Shown here piece by piece: positions 302 to 7,123 of a stretch of DNA of 64,000 nt; the first letter of the stretch is position 1; every line of letters starts with the position of its first letter. Source of the stretch: a bacterium (lineage in GTDB: Bacteria; Bacteroidota; Bacteroidia; Flavobacteriales_D; Crocinitomicaceae); contig JANSYQ010000010.1 in NCBI GenBank assembly GCA_024742305.1, positions 1-64,000 of the forward strand, written 5' to 3'. The notes beneath the pieces are model-generated. The model searched no databases and was not told the DNA's origin. It was given only the letters and a program-made list of their open reading frames with translations. A program made the position numbers and the translations under genes.

Positions 302-904
302 CTAATCAGGGAAATATCGAAGAACTGAACGGTGCCAAAGAGTTGAATTTGTATCCAGCGTATTCCTATAGCTAATGGAAGTAAAATTGGTTGGTTTCAA
401 CTTTCGAAAGTAAAAAGTAGCTTCCGTATTAAAGCTTATCGGTGCAAGGGATCTTGGGGGAAGAATATTAGCTCCACCTATTAAGTGTAATCGATTGGTG
501 TCTGAGCTAATTGTGAAAAAGTGAATTCCAAAATTGTCGTCGAATCTATTGTAATCTTGCCTCACGCAGCACTCCAAAATAAGATAGTTAGGAGCATCGT
601 AAACATTCGTTAGCTTAGATTCAGTGCAGTAAGAATCCTCCCGGAGAACAACTGAGTCCAAATACAAGCCTAAAGGAATAGCGTTAACCCTATCGAAATT
701 CAAGGAAATCGTATCAAAATTGAAAAATACAGGTAATTCGTACATGGAAGTGTCAAGTACTTCTACTGAGTCTTCTGTGTTTTCTGATATACTCTCTGAA
801 TTTTCCTGTAACGATTTCGACCTAGAAGGTTCTGAACAGGAAGACACACATACAAACGAAAGGATAACGAAACAAAGTAATTTAGGTATGTGTAAGCTGG
901 ACAT
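302..904 (-). CDS. Hypothetical lipoprotein
   Basis: A 200-residue protein of unknown function. The ATG at 904 is preferred over an upstream in-frame TTG, because it puts a clean signal peptide first: a Lys near the N-terminus, a hydrophobic core, then the lipobox V-S-S-C with Cys at residue 23. The residues after Cys are Ser/Glu-rich and disordered-looking, and the rest is predicted beta-rich. No catalytic motif was recognised. It lies about 25 nt downstream of an intrinsic terminator that ends the candidate small RNA at 925-1134, so it may be reached by read-through from the sigma-54-type promoter or have its own weak promoter. Likely membrane-anchored in the cell envelope. Confidence 0.6.
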   Translation of the reverse strand: MSSLHIPKLLCFVILSFVCVSSCSEPSRSKSLQENSESISENTEDSVEVLDTSMYELPVFFNFDTISLNFDRVNAIPLGLYLDSVVLREDSYCTESKLTNVYDAPNYLILECCVRQDYNRFDDNFGIHFFTISSDTNRLHLIGGANILPPRSLAPISFNTEATFYFRKLKPTNFTSISYRNTLDTNSTLWHRSVLRYFPD

Positions 905-924
905 CGTAAGTATGAATATAATCA

Positions 925-1134
925 AATGAAAAAGCCCCGACTAACGTCGAGGCTTTTCAATGCTACAACAATATCCCTCTAGTTGCTATGAAATTGAGAT
1001 GATGTCGGGATATCGATTGCTTACCCAGGAGCTGTAAACCCTAATTGCTCCATTATTTTTATCTATACGAGTAGATTTTTTTATTTCATTACACGAAGCA
1101 TTTCTCAGCTTCTACGGTAGCACCGTTGACTACA
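925..1134 (-). ncRNA. Candidate sigma-54-dependent structured small RNA
   Basis: No convincing ORF lies here, but the minus strand folds into a chain of short perfect stems: 1114-1126 (ACGGT/ACCGT), 1095-1112 (GAAGC/GCTTC), 1061-1076 (ATCTA/TAGAT), 1028-1051 (GGAGC/GCTCC) and 971-1013 (ATATCCC/GGGATAT). It ends in a 12-bp terminator stem at 930-957 with a T run. The 5' end is inferred as 12 nt downstream of the -12 GC of a sigma-54-like promoter at 1145-1161. The alternative is an unusually long, structured 5' UTR with attenuator for the lipoprotein gene at 302-904. The RNA itself is an inference; stems and promoter match are read directly. Confidence 0.5.
929..957 (-). terminator. Intrinsic terminator (works on minus strand, possibly both)
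   Basis: On the minus strand AAAAGCCTCGAC, loop GTTA, GTCGGGGCTTTT (one G-U pair) then TTTTTC. It closes the candidate small RNA and lies just upstream of the lipoprotein gene, so it could act as an attenuator for that gene. Confidence 0.75.
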
Positions 1135-1144
1135 CGTTCTTACT

Positions 1145-1161
1145 AGCGAAAGATGTTCCAA
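1145..1161 (-). promoter_or_regulatory. Sigma-54 (-24/-12) type promoter for the candidate small RNA
   Basis: Minus strand reads TTGGAACATCTTTCGCT: GG, ten bases, GC, the invariant spacing of sigma-54 promoters. It shares TTGGAAC with the promoter at 1885-1901. A pair of palindromes lies 67-100 bp upstream, the right distance for an NtrC-type activator. The predicted start is about 1134. Confidence 0.5.
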
Positions 1162-1225
1162 ACTTGATGAGTATCATAAGTATTTGATAAACAGATGATA
1201 ATGTTTTACGTCATAGGTGATTCTT

Positions 1226-1258
1226 TTTCATAATGAAAATAACCTTCTCATTATGAAA
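1226..1258. promoter_or_regulatory. Paired activator sites (TTTCA-N3-TGAAA), copy pair A
   Basis: Two 13-bp palindromes, TTTCA TAA TGAAA (1226-1238) and TCTCA TTA TGAAA (1246-1258), with centres exactly 20 bp apart, so they lie on the same helix face. Together they could also form a hairpin, but no T run follows on either strand. They are the likely enhancer for the promoter at 1145-1161. Confidence 0.5.
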
Positions 1259-1295: not shown

Positions 1296-1841
1296 TTAGA
1301 GGTAATTTATACTCTCTACTTTAATCACTGGCTTCAAAATATATTTACCCTGTCCAGTTTCAACAATAGATGCCGCGGCATCAAAATCAATTAACACTTC
1401 CACCAAGTCATTTGGAGAAATGGTTGTATTAATATTCAATTTTAATCCTGTATTCGTTTGACTTGTGAGTTCTAAAGGATAGGTCAAACTGTCAATGACA
1501 ACGCTGTTGTTAGATCCAAGAATCAATCGCATTTGTTGTAAATCTCCCACCGGAAGAACATTCGTGTCGGCTAAAACAGTGGTAATGTCGTTTTGTAACT
1601 CAAGAAGGTTGTAAACGCCTGCATTGGTGTTCAAGTCGACCCAGCCTGAATTTCCAACGTTGTTGCTAATATGTACTTGAACTTGTTGAATATCGACAAA
1701 GACACTATCAAAATCACCGGGAGCGTCTGTCATTTTCACGCGTAAATATCCCGTCTTTTCATTCGTCTTGTTACAAGAAATAGCGAATACCAAACTTAAT
1801 ACCGCTAAAACCGTAATTTTAATAATTCCTATTCGTTTCAT
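1296..1841 (-). CDS. DUF4382 domain lipoprotein
   Basis: A 181-residue lipoprotein with signal peptide and lipobox FAISC (Cys about residue 23). The remainder matches the DUF4382 pattern: an early beta strand with M-T-D-A-P-G-D-F-D (residues 37-45), a central G-V-Y-N-L-L-E-L, and a closing strand ending in an I-L-K-P-V-I-K-V segment. The family is made of small beta-sandwich envelope proteins of unknown role, common in Bacteroidota. The gene is last in the order kinase-regulator-DUF4382 on the minus strand, but it has its own sigma-54-like promoter (1885-1901) and paired upstream palindromes. It is therefore the best candidate target of the adjacent NtrC-type regulator. Function in the stimulus response is unknown. 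Confidence 0.8.
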   Translation of the reverse strand: MKRIGIIKITVLAVLSLVFAISCNKTNEKTGYLRVKMTDAPGDFDSVFVDIQQVQVHISNNVGNSGWVDLNTNAGVYNLLELQNDITTVLADTNVLPVGDLQQMRLILGSNNSVVIDSLTYPLELTSQTNTGLKLNINTTISPNDLVEVLIDFDAAASIVETGQGKYILKPVIKVESINYL

Positions 1842-1884: not shown

Positions 1885-1901
1885 TGCTAAACACGTTCCA
1901 A
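1885..1901 (-). promoter_or_regulatory. Sigma-54 (-24/-12) type promoter of the DUF4382 gene
   Basis: Minus strand reads TTGGAACGTGTTTAGCA, close to the sigma-54 consensus TGGCACG-N4-TTGCW, with exact GG-N10-GC spacing. The predicted transcript start is about 1874, giving a 33-nt leader to the ATG at 1841. Confidence 0.6.
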
Positions 1902-1956: not shown

Positions 1957-1989
1957 TTTCGATATGAAAAATGACCTTTCAATTCGAAG
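1957..1989. promoter_or_regulatory. Paired activator sites (TTTCA-N3-TGAAA), copy pair B
   Basis: TTTCG ATA TGAAA (1957-1969) and TTTCA ATT CGAAG (1977-1989), centres 20 bp apart, as in the pair at 1226-1258. They lie about 60-90 bp upstream of the sigma-54-like promoter and just beyond the stop of the regulator gene. Confidence 0.5.
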
Positions 1990-1996
1990 AAAAAAG

Positions 1997-3355
1997 TCAG
2001 CTAACTTGGGTCTTCATCTCCTTCAACATGCGGTAAACAGTAGTTTGACCGATGCCCAACTTCTCTGCAACCAAAGCCGTGTCATTATTACATTGTCCCA
2101 TGTAGAAGTTGACGATTCGAATGGAATACTCGCGTAAAGTTTGCTCTTTTGTAAGTAAATCGGGAAGAAGATCAGATCCGGTGGAGAATGTTAAGTCGTC
2201 CTCTCCGATTTCCAATTCATTCGTCATTACGACCGCCAGTTCTACAATCGATTTTAACTCTCGAACATTGCCTGGCCATTGGTAACTCAAAATTTTATGA
2301 CGTGCCTCTTTGCTGAATCTCTTTTCTTCTAGACCATTCTCTTTGCAGAACTGCACCATGAAATGATTGGCAAGAATCAAAACGTCGTCTTGTCTGTCAC
2401 GCAAAGGCGGAAGAGAAATCGGAAGACCATACAAACGATAATAAAGATCTTCTCGGAAGTTCCCTTTCTTAACCTCTTCTAACAAATTACGATGCGTAGC
2501 TACAATGATGCGGCAGTTCACTGGAACAGGCGTATTACTACCAATTCGGGTAACTTCTTTTTCCTGTAGAACGCGCAGCAATTTTACTTGTGCATTGAGA
2601 TCCATTTCCCCTATTTCATCTAGAAATAAGGTGCCTCCATTCGCTTCTTCGAACTTTCCTTTTCTTCTGGAGATGGCTCCTGTAAAAGCCCCTTTTTCAA
2701 ATCCGAAAAGCTCGCTTTCAATTAGTTCTGAAGGGATGGCGGCCACATTAACAGCAATAAATGGCTTGTCCTTTCGATTCGAGTTAAAGTGAATTGCCTT
2801 CGCTACCATTTCTTTTCCGGTTCCTGTTTCTCCGGAAATTGATACGGTAATATTGTTGGCCAGTGCCCGATTCATTAGATCATACACTTTTCGCATGCCC
2901 GGGCTGTTACCGATAAGACTATTCTCAAAAGAGTACTTCTGTTGCACCTCTTTTTTCAACGATGCTAATTCTTTTCGAAGGTCAAAGTTCTTACAGATAT
3001 GATTTACCGTATTCAACACCATCTCTTTGATGTCTTTCGACTTTACGAGGTAGTCGTACGCACCAGATTTGAGCAATGAAACTGCCGTTTCTATCTTTTC
3101 TTGCTCTGAAATAATGATCACCTCAATGGAAGGATCTGCTTCTTTGATTTTATTGAGTAACTCGTCTCCCTTCATATCGGGCAATCCGTAATCAACCGTA
3201 ATTACTGCTGGACCGTTGTCAAGCTCACGCAGGACCTCCTTAGCTGAGTGAAATCCTTTTACCGTATAATCGGGGTTCAACGATAAGCTGTGAACCAACA
3301 AGCGATTGTACCATTCATCGTCTTCAACTACGTAAATTAAAAATTGTGAATCCAT
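1997..3355 (-). CDS. Sigma-54-dependent response regulator (NtrC family)
   Basis: 452 residues in the standard three-domain order. The receiver domain (1-120) has acidic D11-D13 and phospho-acceptor D55 in V-D-Y-G-L-P-D. The AAA+ domain (about 145-375) has Walker A GETGTGKE, the sigma-54 contact loop GAFTGA and a Walker B ending FLDEIGE. A Fis-type HTH ends the protein (about 410-448). It activates transcription with RpoN when phosphorylated. Its ATG abuts the stop codon of the hybrid kinase gene (TAA then ATG), so the two are co-transcribed and almost certainly partners, with the kinase's HPt domain as phospho-donor. The palindromes flanking the cluster (1226-1258, 1957-1989, 5885-5925) are candidate binding sites. 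The signal is unknown. Confidence 0.93.
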   Translation of the reverse strand: MDSQFLIYVVEDDEWYNRLLVHSLSLNPDYTVKGFHSAKEVLRELDNGPAVITVDYGLPDMKGDELLNKIKEADPSIEVIIISEQEKIETAVSLLKSGAYDYLVKSKDIKEMVLNTVNHICKNFDLRKELASLKKEVQQKYSFENSLIGNSPGMRKVYDLMNRALANNITVSISGETGTGKEMVAKAIHFNSNRKDKPFIAVNVAAIPSELIESELFGFEKGAFTGAISRRKGKFEEANGGTLFLDEIGEMDLNAQVKLLRVLQEKEVTRIGSNTPVPVNCRIIVATHRNLLEEVKKGNFREDLYYRLYGLPISLPPLRDRQDDVLILANHFMVQFCKENGLEEKRFSKEARHKILSYQWPGNVRELKSIVELAVVMTNELEIGEDDLTFSTGSDLLPDLLTKEQTLREYSIRIVNFYMGQCNNDTALVAEKLGIGQTTVYRMLKEMKTQVS

Positions 3356-5854
3356 TTACACTTCTTTTTCTCGAACCAGTTCTGATTCTACTATTGTAAT
3401 TACTTTTTCTCCCATCTTTGTTGCTTTCTCAAGTAGTGACTCGAGTTCAACGGTGGACGGGGACTCTGTTTTCGATTGATTTTCAATTTGTTTCAGCACA
3501 TTGTACAGCTGTGTTGCCTCCAAATGCTTGCACGGTGCACTGATGCGGTGTGCTATTTCTCCCATTCGTTTGATTTCGCCACCTTCCAGTAGCTTTTTCA
3601 TTTCGGCAAGACCGTTTTCTGTACCTCGAATAAAGGTTTCGAGCATTTCTACATAGAAACTTTCATCTTGACCACTCAGCGCTTTTAAACCTTCGAAGTC
3701 GAGTAGCCCCTCTGAGGAAGAATCATTTACATCCATTTTCTGTGTTATGAGCTGTTCCGCGATTACTGAAAGTAGCTGCGACTCGCGGAACGGTTTACCA
3801 AGAACCGCATTCATTCCTGCATTGATATAGGATTTTTTGTCCTCATCCGTGATCGCTGCAGATAGCGCAATGATCGGTGTTTCTTTGTTTTTTCCATTTT
3901 GACGAATGGCAACGGCTGCTTCTGTTCCGTTCATCTCAGGCATTCGAGCATCCATTAAGATGATATCGAATTTGTTTTTGTTCGAGAGCTTTACGGCGTC
4001 TTTTCCATTTTCTGCCTCCGTCATTTTTACACCGAATTTCCCAAGAATTGTAGCGATAAGCTTTCTGTTGAAGGCTTCGTCATCTGCTACTAAAATGGAA
4101 GTATTCTCTACAATTGGTTGGAAAGAGCTCGTCGGAGCCGCTTCTTCAAGCTCGGTTATTTCTCCGAGGGCATAAGGAATTTCAATAATGATTTCGGTTC
4201 CAACATTTTCCTTACTGTGAACTTGTACCGTTCCGTTATGTAGCTCGATAAGTTTCTTTGTAATGGACAGTCCCAGTCCGGTTCCACCGTATGTTCTTGA
4301 CGTACTGGCGTCGGCTTGTTCGAAGGCTTCAAAAACACGTTCTAGTTTTTCAGGTGACATTCCGATTCCGGTGTCGGCAATGGAGAATTCGAGAATGGCG
4401 ATTTTTTCTCCTACCTGAAGGGGCGTAACAGTAACAGACACAATTCCCTTGTCTGTAAATTTGACTGCGTTGCTTGTTACGTTGATCAAAATTTGAGAGA
4501 GTCGAATAGCATCACCAAGTATGACATCCGGCGTATCATCGAGCACAATGAACTCAAGTTCAATGTCTTTTTCTTCTGCAAGCGGTGTCATCAGATCTCT
4601 GACTTCGTTGAGTGTTTCTCTCAGTCGGAAGTTGCGCGTTTCCAACTCCAATTTGTAATTCTGCAGTTTTGTGAAGTCGAGCACTTCATTGATAAGTTGA
4701 AGTAGGTGAGAAGAGGCTTTGATCACTGTTTCCAGTTGGTCGCGTTGCTGTTGATTTAACTCGGAGTGGGATAATTGCTCAGTAAATCCCGAAATGATAT
4801 TCATCGGTGTTCTTATCTCGTGACTCACCGTGGCAACGAAATGTTCCTTCGCCTGTGCGAGAGATTCTGCCTCATTTTTTGCGCGTTTCAAGACTTTACG
4901 ATAACGGGTACTTCTTGAAATGTAGCGGATAATGGTATAACTGGTGATGAGCAGCAGGATGGAGATGAGTACACAGAAGATGATGATTTGCACATTGGCC
5001 TTGCTTACGATTTCGCGAGTTCGTTGAGCGCGTATTTTATCTCTTTTTAGTCCTTTGTTTTCCAAATCCGCAAGAATGCTACTTAAGTGGGCACTGTAGA
5101 GTTTGTCTAGCTCAAGCAGTTCATATTCTTGAAGTAATTGCTGTTCTTCTCGAGAAGTTTCAGACGATTGAATTTGCGCAAGATTGTTTTTAACTGTCTC
5201 ATAGTTCACACGCATCTCCTTCGGAACATTCGCGGCGATATTCGAATCATCGTCATCTTCCTCTTCGTTATCATTGTTGCGGCGCTTGTTTCTATTTTTC
5301 TTCTTTTTCAATTTGAAAAAAAGGAACCTACGCTCCTCTTCTGTTTCTTCTTCTTTTTTTTGAGATTTCGCTGATTGTGGTACCGAGGCATCTACTTCTT
5401 CTACGGCACCCTCAATAGTTTCATTTACGCGTTCCAGTGCTTGTTGCACTCGATATTCATTCTGAAGCACCAATAAACTGTCATATACTTCCAATTTATA
5501 CGACACGTACTTTGAAAGTGTGTCTAACTGTGCATCGTCTTTCTTAGAAGCCAATTCCATTGTATCCAAAGTGGATAATTGGTCTAGAATATTGGATCGA
5601 ATGGTCCTGTATTGATTTAGAAATAGTGTGTCTTCAGTAAGAGTGAATGTTTTTACTTTGTTTTCCGCCTCTGTAACACTGTAGATTACATTCTTGGTCA
5701 TGGCAACGGTTGGATCCGGTTTTCCCGATTCTTTTGCATTGTCTAAAACCTTTACAAAATCTCTATAAGTAATAAAGCCAACTGCGCTCACTAGTAGAAG
5801 TATGAGCAACATAATCATGAGGAATCCCTGTGTAATCGAAAACTTTAATTTCAT
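3356..5854 (-). CDS. Hybrid sensor histidine kinase with receiver and HPt domains
   Basis: 832 residues. Transmembrane helix 1 (about 9-28), a periplasmic helical region (30-285), and transmembrane helix 2 (289-311). Then HisKA with H345 in VSHEIRTP, the HATPase domain with DTGIGM and GGTGLGLS, a receiver (about 588-710) with D in LMDARMPEMNG, and a C-terminal HPt (about 730-815) with the His of A-H-R-I-S-A-P. The layout implies a His-Asp-His-Asp relay ending on the adjacent NtrC-type regulator. The periplasmic domain contains an odd low-complexity stretch (about 167-203), acidic, then Lys/Arg-rich, then acidic again. First gene of the operon; possible autoregulatory palindromes lie upstream. 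The ligand is unknown. Confidence 0.92.
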   Translation of the reverse strand: MKLKFSITQGFLMIMLLILLLVSAVGFITYRDFVKVLDNAKESGKPDPTVAMTKNVIYSVTEAENKVKTFTLTEDTLFLNQYRTIRSNILDQLSTLDTMELASKKDDAQLDTLSKYVSYKLEVYDSLLVLQNEYRVQQALERVNETIEGAVEEVDASVPQSAKSQKKEEETEEERRFLFFKLKKKKNRNKRRNNDNEEEDDDDSNIAANVPKEMRVNYETVKNNLAQIQSSETSREEQQLLQEYELLELDKLYSAHLSSILADLENKGLKRDKIRAQRTREIVSKANVQIIIFCVLISILLLITSYTIIRYISRSTRYRKVLKRAKNEAESLAQAKEHFVATVSHEIRTPMNIISGFTEQLSHSELNQQQRDQLETVIKASSHLLQLINEVLDFTKLQNYKLELETRNFRLRETLNEVRDLMTPLAEEKDIELEFIVLDDTPDVILGDAIRLSQILINVTSNAVKFTDKGIVSVTVTPLQVGEKIAILEFSIADTGIGMSPEKLERVFEAFEQADASTSRTYGGTGLGLSITKKLIELHNGTVQVHSKENVGTEIIIEIPYALGEITELEEAAPTSSFQPIVENTSILVADDEAFNRKLIATILGKFGVKMTEAENGKDAVKLSNKNKFDIILMDARMPEMNGTEAAVAIRQNGKNKETPIIALSAAITDEDKKSYINAGMNAVLGKPFRESQLLSVIAEQLITQKMDVNDSSSEGLLDFEGLKALSGQDESFYVEMLETFIRGTENGLAEMKKLLEGGEIKRMGEIAHRISAPCKHLEATQLYNVLKQIENQSKTESPSTVELESLLEKATKMGEKVITIVESELVREKEV

Positions 5855-5884
5855 TGGCTATTCACTATTTTTTCAAGGTAAGGT

Positions 5885-5925
5885 TTTCAATTTGAAATAA
5901 GTGACAAAAATATGTCAAAATGAAA
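5885..5925. promoter_or_regulatory. Palindromes upstream of the hybrid kinase gene
   Basis: A perfect TTTCA ATT TGAAA (5885-5897) and a weaker TGTCA AAA TGAAA (5913-5925), the same motif class as at 1226-1258 and 1957-1989. Centre spacing here is 28 bp rather than 20, and no GG-N10-GC promoter was found between them and the ATG. Binding would suggest autoregulation rather than classic activation. A further copy, TTTCA AAA TGAAA, is at 6060-6072. Confidence 0.3.
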
Positions 5926-6073
5926 ATTCCACCTTTTTCGGTGTACATTCCAATCGTGATGCCAATTATTGAGAGTTTTTTAAAATGCCGATTTTAAGAG
6001 GTTTACCAAAGCTATCGTTGGGGGAAATGCTTGAAAGCACACCATTATTGAAATAGCATTTTCAAAATGAAAA

Positions 6074-7123
6074 TTAAGCCAAGTTTCTCTTCCCACGATC
6101 CAATCCAAAGGTGAAGGTACTGCCAACACCCAAGGTGCTACGAACAGAGATGGTTTGACCGTGCGCCTCAATAAAGTGTCGCGCAATGGATAGTCCTAAA
6201 CCGGAACCACCGGCATTTCTGTTTCTACTTTTTTCAACGCGATAGAAGCGTTCAAATAGTCTCGGCAAATCTTCCTCAGGAATACCCGGGCCGTTGTCTG
6301 AAACTTCAACCGTAATGATGTTGTTTAAGATGTAAAAGCGGATGTTCGTTTCGCCACCATCGTTTCCATAGGAAATGGAGTTGCCGATTAAATTTGTTAG
6401 CACTTGGGTGATTTTCCCCTTGTCAGCATACACAAAAATGGGATCAAAGTCTTTGGCAAACTTCAGTTTTATCTTACGCTTTTTCGCCCGACCTTCCAGT
6501 TCATCAAAAATATCATCAACGAGCTCAACAATATCGAAATGGGAATAATCCAGTTCAATGACCCCCACTTCCATCTTGGCAATTTTGTCTAAATCTTCCA
6601 AAATGGTCGTCATGCGATCGGTAGCTTTTGAAGCGCGCTCCAAAAATTGACGGTTTACGTTATCATCTTCTAAGCCTCCTTCCAATAAGGTTAGAATATA
6701 GCCTTGAATGGAAAATACCGGTGTTTTTAACTCATGCGCTAAGTTTCCGAGGAATTCGCGACGAAACTCTTCTTGCTCTTTCAATTTATTGATCTCTTGT
6801 GTGCGCTCTTCGGTCCATTTTTTCGTTTCTACCTCGGCACGTTCTATAACATCATCAAACAGTGAAAAGTTCTCGTTGTGTTGATTGATAATCTTCCCTT
6901 TCCGAATGGAGCGATACAAGATTTTTAATTTCTGCGTAATGAATCTTCGCAAGAGAACATAGAATACCAAATAGGAGAGTCCACCTGTGAGTAAAGGAAA
7001 TAAAAGAAAATACAACGAGGGCACTCCAACCGACTGATTGAGAACAATCAACAGCAGGAAGGAAAGGACGGAAACAACAACGCTTCCGATTAAAAGTACA
7101 TGTACGGGCTTAAGGTTTTTCAA
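6074..7123 (-). CDS. phoR: PhoR-like sensor histidine kinase
   Basis: 349 residues with two N-terminal membrane helices (about 8-28 and 37-58) and only a short loop between them. There is no PAS or large sensor domain. A helical linker (90-120) leads to HisKA with H130 in NLAHELKTPVFSI, then the HATPase with DNGPGIPEEDL and GGSGLGLSIARHF. It overlaps the upstream regulator gene by 4 nt (ATGA), so the two are translationally coupled. The absence of a periplasmic sensor fits PhoR-type kinases that sense through a partner. Assignment to phosphate rests on similarity to PhoR plus the neighbouring Na/Pi transporter, and is an inference. Confidence 0.8.
   Translation of the reverse strand: MKNLKPVHVLLIGSVVVSVLSFLLLIVLNQSVGVPSLYFLLFPLLTGGLSYLVFYVLLRRFITQKLKILYRSIRKGKIINQHNENFSLFDDVIERAEVETKKWTEERTQEINKLKEQEEFRREFLGNLAHELKTPVFSIQGYILTLLEGGLEDDNVNRQFLERASKATDRMTTILEDLDKIAKMEVGVIELDYSHFDIVELVDDIFDELEGRAKKRKIKLKFAKDFDPIFVYADKGKITQVLTNLIGNSISYGNDGGETNIRFYILNNIITVEVSDNGPGIPEEDLPRLFERFYRVEKSRNRNAGGSGLGLSIARHFIEAHGQTISVRSTLGVGSTFTFGLDRGKRNLA

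Follow-up and report, generated by a model that had tools for sequence, protein, structure and literature searches.

Which product does an NtrC-type response regulator of the Crocinitomicaceae control from the intergenic gap downstream of its own gene, and is that product an RNA in its own right or a part of a neighbouring messenger? The question is raised by a window of 64,000 nucleotides (the whole stretch of DNA that was analysed) from a 4.09-Mb genome, in which the minus strand carries, from 5′ to 3′, the genes for a hybrid histidine kinase and an NtrC-type regulator, a DUF4382 gene, a gap (1295-929) and a lipoprotein-like gene (Table 1). The initial annotation proposed that the kinase/regulator pair controls a regulatory RNA encoded in this gap. 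The evidence gathered here points to a free-standing small RNA (sRNA) of ~205 nt that is probably activated by the adjacent regulator via sigma-54, a reading to which we give a probability of roughly three in four. The proposal stands insofar as the operator can be tied to the regulator and the promoter and the core of the RNA are conserved, but the RNA is probably not the sole target: the regulon apparently extends to protein genes, and the RNA is better regarded as one of its members.

Table 1. Features of the locus, in window coordinates
Feature	Position	Strand	Evidence or remark
Hybrid histidine kinase, likely partner of the regulator	3356-5854	-	Pfam PF00512, PF02518, PF00072, PF01627
NtrC-type response regulator	1997-3355	-	Pfam PF00072 (receiver) and PF00158 (sigma-54 interaction)
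Second putative operator pair, ahead of the DUF4382 gene	1957-1989	.	
Predicted sigma-54-type promoter of the DUF4382 gene, TTGGAACGTGTTTAGCA	1885-1901	-	Exact pattern match
DUF4382 lipoprotein gene	1296-1841	-	Pfam PF14321, E 2.2e-34
Putative paired palindromic operator, 20 bp centre to centre	1226-1258	.	TTTCATAATGAAA-N7-TCTCATTATGAAA
Predicted sigma-54-type promoter of the RNA, TTGGAACATCTTTCGCT (GG-N10-GC)	1145-1161	-	13/17 positions the same in Fluviicola sp. XM-24bin1
Predicted small RNA, ~205 nt	929-1134	-	Core kept in Fluviicola sp. XM-24bin1; no Rfam family at gathering score
Three short 5′ stems	1061-1125	-	Not conserved
Hairpin 1, GGAGC stem and 14-nt loop AAUUAGGGUUUACA	1028-1051	-	Same in both genomes; formed in both core folds
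Hairpin 2, GCAAUCGAUAUCCC / GGGAUAUUGUUGU	965-1020	-	Kept in Fluviicola sp. XM-24bin1
Hairpin 2 loop, CAUCAUCUCAAUUUCAUAGCAACU (24 nt)	981-1004	-	Predicted seed, antisense to a lipoprotein start codon
Predicted intrinsic terminator	928-958	-	Strong stem; pair probability 1.00 at full length
Lipoprotein-like gene	302-904	-	Likely ATG at about 904

The genomes named most often below are that of the window (G000), Fluviicola sp. XM-24bin1 (G021, locus L019) and Crocinitomix catalasitica ATCC 23190 (G098, locus L208), the latter two being assigned by the NCBI taxonomy to the Crocinitomicaceae, Flavobacteriales, Bacteroidota. The Pfam domains of the hybrid kinase include a receiver and an Hpt domain. 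In the regulator, GAFTGA can be read in the translation and a C-terminal helix-turn-helix was assigned by eye. Upstream of the kinase gene, both the window (5855-6075, minus strand) and Fluviicola sp. XM-24bin1 (L019 2051-2330) carry further TTTCATTTTGAAA-like palindromes and TTGGCAT-N5-TTGRA, which suggests that the kinase-regulator operon may be autoregulated.

A predicted -24/-12 promoter, as expected of a sigma-54-dependent sRNA, lies at 1161-1145, where a GG-N10-GC match had been reported, and Fluviicola sp. XM-24bin1 conserves it. With one mismatch tolerated, the pattern TTGGAACNNNTTTNGCW has 3 matches in the window versus 0.27 expected, the exact ones being 1145-1161 and 1885-1901, and as the pattern was derived from these two sites, its enrichment in the window is not an independent test. 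Over the whole genome, a pattern similar to TTGGAACNNNTTTNGCW gave 108 matches at up to one mismatch versus 97 for its reversed control and is not enriched; the promoter call is therefore based on position and conservation. No TAnnTTTG, given as the sigma-A element of Flavobacterium in PMC9723704, occurs on the minus strand between 900 and 1320, and no housekeeping promoter for the RNA was seen.

Upstream of this promoter, two TTTCA-N3-TGAAA palindromes 20 bp apart had been described; the pair exists, but its second palindrome has one mismatch (TCTCA). Defined as two TTTC-N5-GAAA palindromes 20 bp apart with up to one mismatch, the pair pattern occurs at 1226-1258 and 1957-1989 in the window, versus 0.01 expected, and in the 4.09-Mb genome at three places only, ahead of the RNA, the DUF4382 gene and an outer-membrane-protein-like (OMP-like) gene, with a -24/-12 element after each. 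The DUF4382 gene is thus likely a second regulon member beside the RNA. The third pair (C13:78823-78855) lies ~140 nt upstream of TTGGTATCGTTCTTGCT, which is beyond the usual 54-66 nt, and of a 176-residue protein that was labelled OMP-like by eye and has no Pfam match; pair and promoter of this gene are both kept in Fluviicola sp. XM-24bin1 (L072 1500-2249, L088). With up to two mismatches, the window's genome has 16 pair sites versus 4 for the reversed pattern, and 12 of the 13 two-mismatch sites, which were scanned for nearby -24/-12 words only, have such a word. In Fluviicola sp. XM-24bin1, the pair ahead of the RNA has 3 mismatches to the pattern, and another pair of that genome, with one mismatch (C4:28760), has no promoter.

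The attribution of this operator to the regulator was followed through the 27 of 240 family genomes with a regulator match at E <= 1e-155. DNA downstream of the regulator was covered for all 27 orthologs (the shortest stretch being 297 nt), and 24 were scored, L199-L201 being left out for a missed stop codon. A module was defined as a pair (up to 3 mismatches) followed 50-70 nt on by a sigma-54-type element, no more than 700 nt downstream of the regulator. With these thresholds, which had been fixed after inspection of an earlier scan of regulator-downstream DNA, a module is present in 14 of the 24 orthologs versus 0 of 2400 dinucleotide shuffles, its pair and promoter standing 54-66 nt apart; the remaining 10 have none at these thresholds. 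The module counted for the window's genome is that of the DUF4382 gene, the RNA's own lying just beyond 700 nt. Half of the 14 have the full GG-N10-GC (G000, G021, G027, G098, G097, G067 and G164), whereas in the other 7, namely G160, G165 and five members of genus group g29, a good -24 element is present but GC is lacking at -12. In G027 and G097, the module precedes an operon for a lone receiver protein, an OMP-like protein and a DUF4382-like protein, and in G160 it precedes OMP-like and DUF4382-like genes, all labels in these operons having been assigned by eye except one receiver domain. Among wider relatives of the regulator (80 kept of 121), a scan for pair and promoter at up to 2 mismatches gave matches in L119 (ahead of the kinase), L120 and L188 and none in loci titled Prolixibacteraceae or Roseivirga; it undercounts, since one Crocinitomix locus (L121) has the pair only at 3 mismatches. 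Two further matches, in L175 and L196, were taken for chance. At the level of sequence, the association with 14 of the 24 orthologs and the scan of the window's own genome assign the putative operator pair to the adjacent NtrC-type regulator and provide the putative activating sequence expected of a sigma-54-dependent sRNA.

The 5′ end of the predicted RNA was set ~12 nt past the -12 element and its 3′ end at the terminator. Positions 1134-925 have a folding energy of -57.7, compared with -43.6 (sd 4.1) in 200 shuffles (z -3.46), and the core (1062-925) reaches a z of -4.41. At full length, the mean pair probability is 0.15, 0.38 and 0.85 for the three 5′ stems, 0.37 for hairpin 1 and 0.93 for hairpin 2. 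Hairpin 1 rises to 0.96 in the core alone; in the folding model, the 5′ half thus competes with hairpin 1 in the full-length window RNA. At its gathering scores, Rfam recognizes only 5S rRNA in the window and no sRNA family, and at relaxed thresholds it yields only terminator-like similarity in the window and nothing in L117.

A second copy of the RNA is found in Fluviicola sp. XM-24bin1, where the regulator is directly followed by the pair, the promoter and the RNA, no DUF4382 gene lies between and the neighbouring genes of the RNA differ from those of the window. Identity between the two genomes is 23/33 over the pair, 26/64 over the spacer, 13/17 over the promoter, 40/82 over the 5′ half of the RNA (1063-1144), 39/42 over the hairpin-1 segment and 87/92 over the remaining core. 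It is the 3′ two thirds of the RNA that are kept, the core being 93-95% identical versus 41-49% for the flanks. Hairpin 1, hairpin 2 and the terminator form in both cores (z -3.06 in Fluviicola sp. XM-24bin1), and in the full-length RNAs of both genomes a mean pair probability of at least 0.93 is kept by hairpin 2 and by the terminator, hairpin 1 reaching 0.98 in Fluviicola sp. XM-24bin1, whose full-length RNA has a z of -2.05 (4 of 200 shuffles as good). The five consecutive perfect stems and the strong terminator of the initial annotation therefore fare unequally. The terminator is confirmed at 958-929 and short stems are indeed present in the sequence, but conservation in the relative, judged from these two sequences only, is confined to hairpins 1 and 2 and the terminator and does not extend to the three 5′ stems. 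By blastn, the core was found in 2 of the 240 family genomes (the window's own and Fluviicola sp. XM-24bin1); 34 genus genomes were also searched, and across both sets the matches in G023, G036 and G259 (two of them in the family search) cover the 3′ terminator end only. When a covariance model of the core was applied to 33 other loci, of which some overlap, no divergent copy emerged (best weak match E 0.067, in L120); in the window it returned the RNA itself, the opposite strand of the terminator (E 0.0045) and one weak match.

These data bear on whether the conserved stretch could belong to a messenger after all. It is extremely improbable that it is a short mRNA for the peptide MEQLGFTAPG or for an unlisted small protein: a 10-codon ORF (1053-1021, ATG at 1053-1051) does lie within the most conserved part, but Fluviicola sp. 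XM-24bin1 has CTG for the ATG, and 1-nt insertions or deletions, which flank loop 2, shift all later frames. Both changes argue against coding, in agreement with the earlier view that the stretch holds no convincing ORF, and the terminator and the lost ORF start support, at the level of sequence, the prediction of a noncoding, terminator-ended transcript at 929-1134. If the transcript were instead a 5′ leader belonging to the 302-904 lipoprotein gene, and the hairpin at 958-929 an attenuator with regulated read-through, this would account for the short distance of ~25 nt from this hairpin to the likely ATG (904) on the same strand, which leaves little room for a separate promoter. This reading appears quite unlikely, given that Fluviicola sp. 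XM-24bin1 keeps the RNA and its terminator with no lipoprotein-like start in the remaining 180 nt of the contig and that the terminator stem is strong; the initial annotation had itself named read-through as the 5′ UTR of this gene as fatal to its proposal, and nothing seen in Fluviicola sp. XM-24bin1 connects the RNA with a 302-904-like gene. Very unlikely, too, is an RNA that is mainly the 3′ UTR of the DUF4382 mRNA. Since a search of the minus strand from 1296 to 958 detected nothing terminator-like, DUF4382 transcripts may run into the RNA, but the RNA of Fluviicola sp. XM-24bin1 has its pair and promoter with no DUF4382 gene upstream, and that of the window has a pair and a promoter of its own, apart from those of the DUF4382 gene. 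Read-through from the DUF4382 gene may nonetheless add to the RNA, no terminator having been detected between the DUF4382 stop and that of the RNA. A free-standing sRNA remains the preferred reading.

A candidate target of this sRNA comes from the loop of hairpin 2, which is the same in both RNA-bearing genomes. When the reverse complement of 18 of its letters was searched with up to 3 mismatches, the best site besides the RNA itself fell, in both genomes, on the start codon of one and the same exported lipoprotein (267 residues), for which there is no Pfam or NCBIfam match. The predicted duplex has 15 contiguous base pairs in both genomes and an energy of -20.3 kcal/mol, compared with a mean of -9.0 (sd 2.6, best -14.6) for the 44 window ORFs with a length of 150 aa or more; none of 2000 mononucleotide shuffles of the loop reaches this value, the lowest being -17.8. 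The matches to the loop-2 complement number 5 versus 0 for the reversed control in Fluviicola sp. XM-24bin1 and, in the window's genome, 4 (the RNA itself included) versus 9, which does not exceed the control. G018 has the target gene at 88% identity with the site unchanged, and neither an RNA match by blastn nor a regulator match at E <= 1e-100; conservation of the site therefore does not depend on the RNA. Co-evolution of the RNA and its target site was considered and dropped, the co-occurrence test having come out against it in this genome. Translational block of the lipoprotein mRNA by loop 2 would be the best single guess, with a chance of about one in three.

Downstream of the same regulator, other lineages carry other noncoding stretches. 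Nine of the 240 family genomes, all of genus group g29, have a conserved stretch without a long ORF, located 3′ of the regulator in 9/9 (L209-L217). In the 8 that can be aligned, it measures 433-446 nt from promoter to terminator, and near identity is seen over a 3′ segment that exceeds 100 nt and carries UUAGG repeats; in 7 of the 9, tblastn within a 12-sequence database (E values as low as 2e-6) shows the remnant of an OMP-like gene, such as GIVGLNYKIPKAPVA. In Crocinitomix catalasitica (L208 354-700), a pair (3 mismatches) and TTGGTATATAATTCGCT are followed by ~340 nt in which no ORF reaches 60 aa, with a terminator at the end and a hairpin whose whole loop is UUAGGGU. Comparison by blastn of the window RNA, the g29 stretch and the Crocinitomix stretch revealed no convincing relation besides the operator sequence. 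We infer that the slot is conserved and its RNA product is not, all three being predicted transcripts. This suggests that the promoter adjacent to an NtrC-type regulator serves either protein genes or noncoding RNAs, depending on the species, and the slot may offer a natural series for the origin of regulatory RNAs from messenger RNAs. A speculative and doubtful extension is that the slot is a nursery of RNAs: within one family, a single type of operator and promoter would serve a surface-protein operon or else, in three lineages, noncoding RNAs without mutual relation, of which one or more arose from a decayed outer-membrane-protein gene, and these RNAs would converge on UUAGG loops or repeats for a common partner.

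Such a partner could be an RRM-type RNA-binding protein, to which the slot RNAs would present UUAGG motifs instead of pairing with mRNAs, an idea based on PMC12119571 and PMC11697453; according to the former, RbpB of B. thetaiotaomicron binds GUAGGAUA (PMC12119571, citing Adams 2021). Loop 1 of the window RNA contains UUAGGG, comparable to the Crocinitomix loop and the g29 repeats, and RRM_1 proteins are encoded in 5 of the 6 genomes checked. The idea is nevertheless unlikely: the only one of the six without an RRM_1 match is Crocinitomix, despite one of the clearest UUAGGGU loops, hairpin 1 is poorly paired in the full-length window RNA (0.37), and UUAGG is a short word common to AT-rich RNAs and weak evidence. 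The window's own contig codes for an RRM_1 protein of 92 residues (G000 C52 104226-104435), ~103 kb from the RNA, and C7 for a second one.

Under the preferred reading of a free-standing, sigma-54-dependent sRNA, the hybrid kinase would phosphorylate the adjacent NtrC-type regulator, for which the paired palindromes would be the upstream activating sequence; once bound there, the regulator would activate sigma-54 polymerase at 1161-1145 through DNA looping, transcription presumably stopping at 958-929. The same regulator would activate the DUF4382 lipoprotein gene and the OMP-like gene, and for this reason the RNA may be seen as the post-transcriptional arm of an envelope-type response. It would most likely act by base-pairing, and the 24-nt loop of hairpin 2 might block translation of the exported lipoprotein mRNA by pairing over its start codon. 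With the regulator, the operator, the promoter, the RNA and a candidate target site all named, the circuit is directly testable in culturable relatives.

Comparable circuits are known from other bacterial groups. In Vibrio, the NtrC-type response regulator LuxO and sigma-54 drive the terminator-ended Qrr sRNAs, and in Enterobacteriaceae the response regulator GlrR and sigma-54 drive GlmY/GlmZ, with an RNA of ~200 nt. The logic of the window locus is that of Qrr in another phylum; unlike in Qrr, the operator of the window's regulator also precedes DUF4382 lipoprotein and OMP-like genes. GlmY/GlmZ share with it a response regulator, sigma-54 and an RNA of ~200 nt, whereas no link to amino-sugar synthesis is seen at the window locus. 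As no Rfam sRNA family matches, the window RNA is not a relative of either. Among sRNAs of Bacteroidota, BTnc231 of Bacteroides (RF04180) gives a weak covariance match at 928-1079, best aligned in the terminator, and membership was rejected at 25.4 bits versus a gathering score of 80.4. As regards sRNAs bound in vivo by RRM proteins (RbpB-FopS type), RRM_1 proteins are encoded in the window's genome. Of the same class is Rfp36 of Flavobacterium psychrophilum, described in the part of PMC9723704 at hand as a putative regulatory RNA at a sigma-54 (SM4) promoter, the shared feature, and as a member of co-expression cluster B419 with gliding-motility genes, exported-protein genes and a probable lipoprotein. 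A sigma-54-driven RNA in Bacteroidota is therefore not without precedent, although that part of the source, unlike the present analysis, names neither activator nor operator for Rfp36. In the open literature, to which the search was confined (subscription papers lying outside it), no report of an RpoN-dependent sRNA in Bacteroidetes was found, and the main text of PMC12316311 on sigma-54 regulons, as far as accessible, contains neither “sRNA” nor “small RNA”; in the literature searched, a controller is named for few of the regulatory RNAs of Bacteroidota. Such a setup thus has counterparts in other bacterial groups, whereas in Bacteroidota there are mere hints of it. New with respect to that literature are the sequence of the RNA, its assignment to a specific regulator and operator, and the turnover of RNAs at a single slot.
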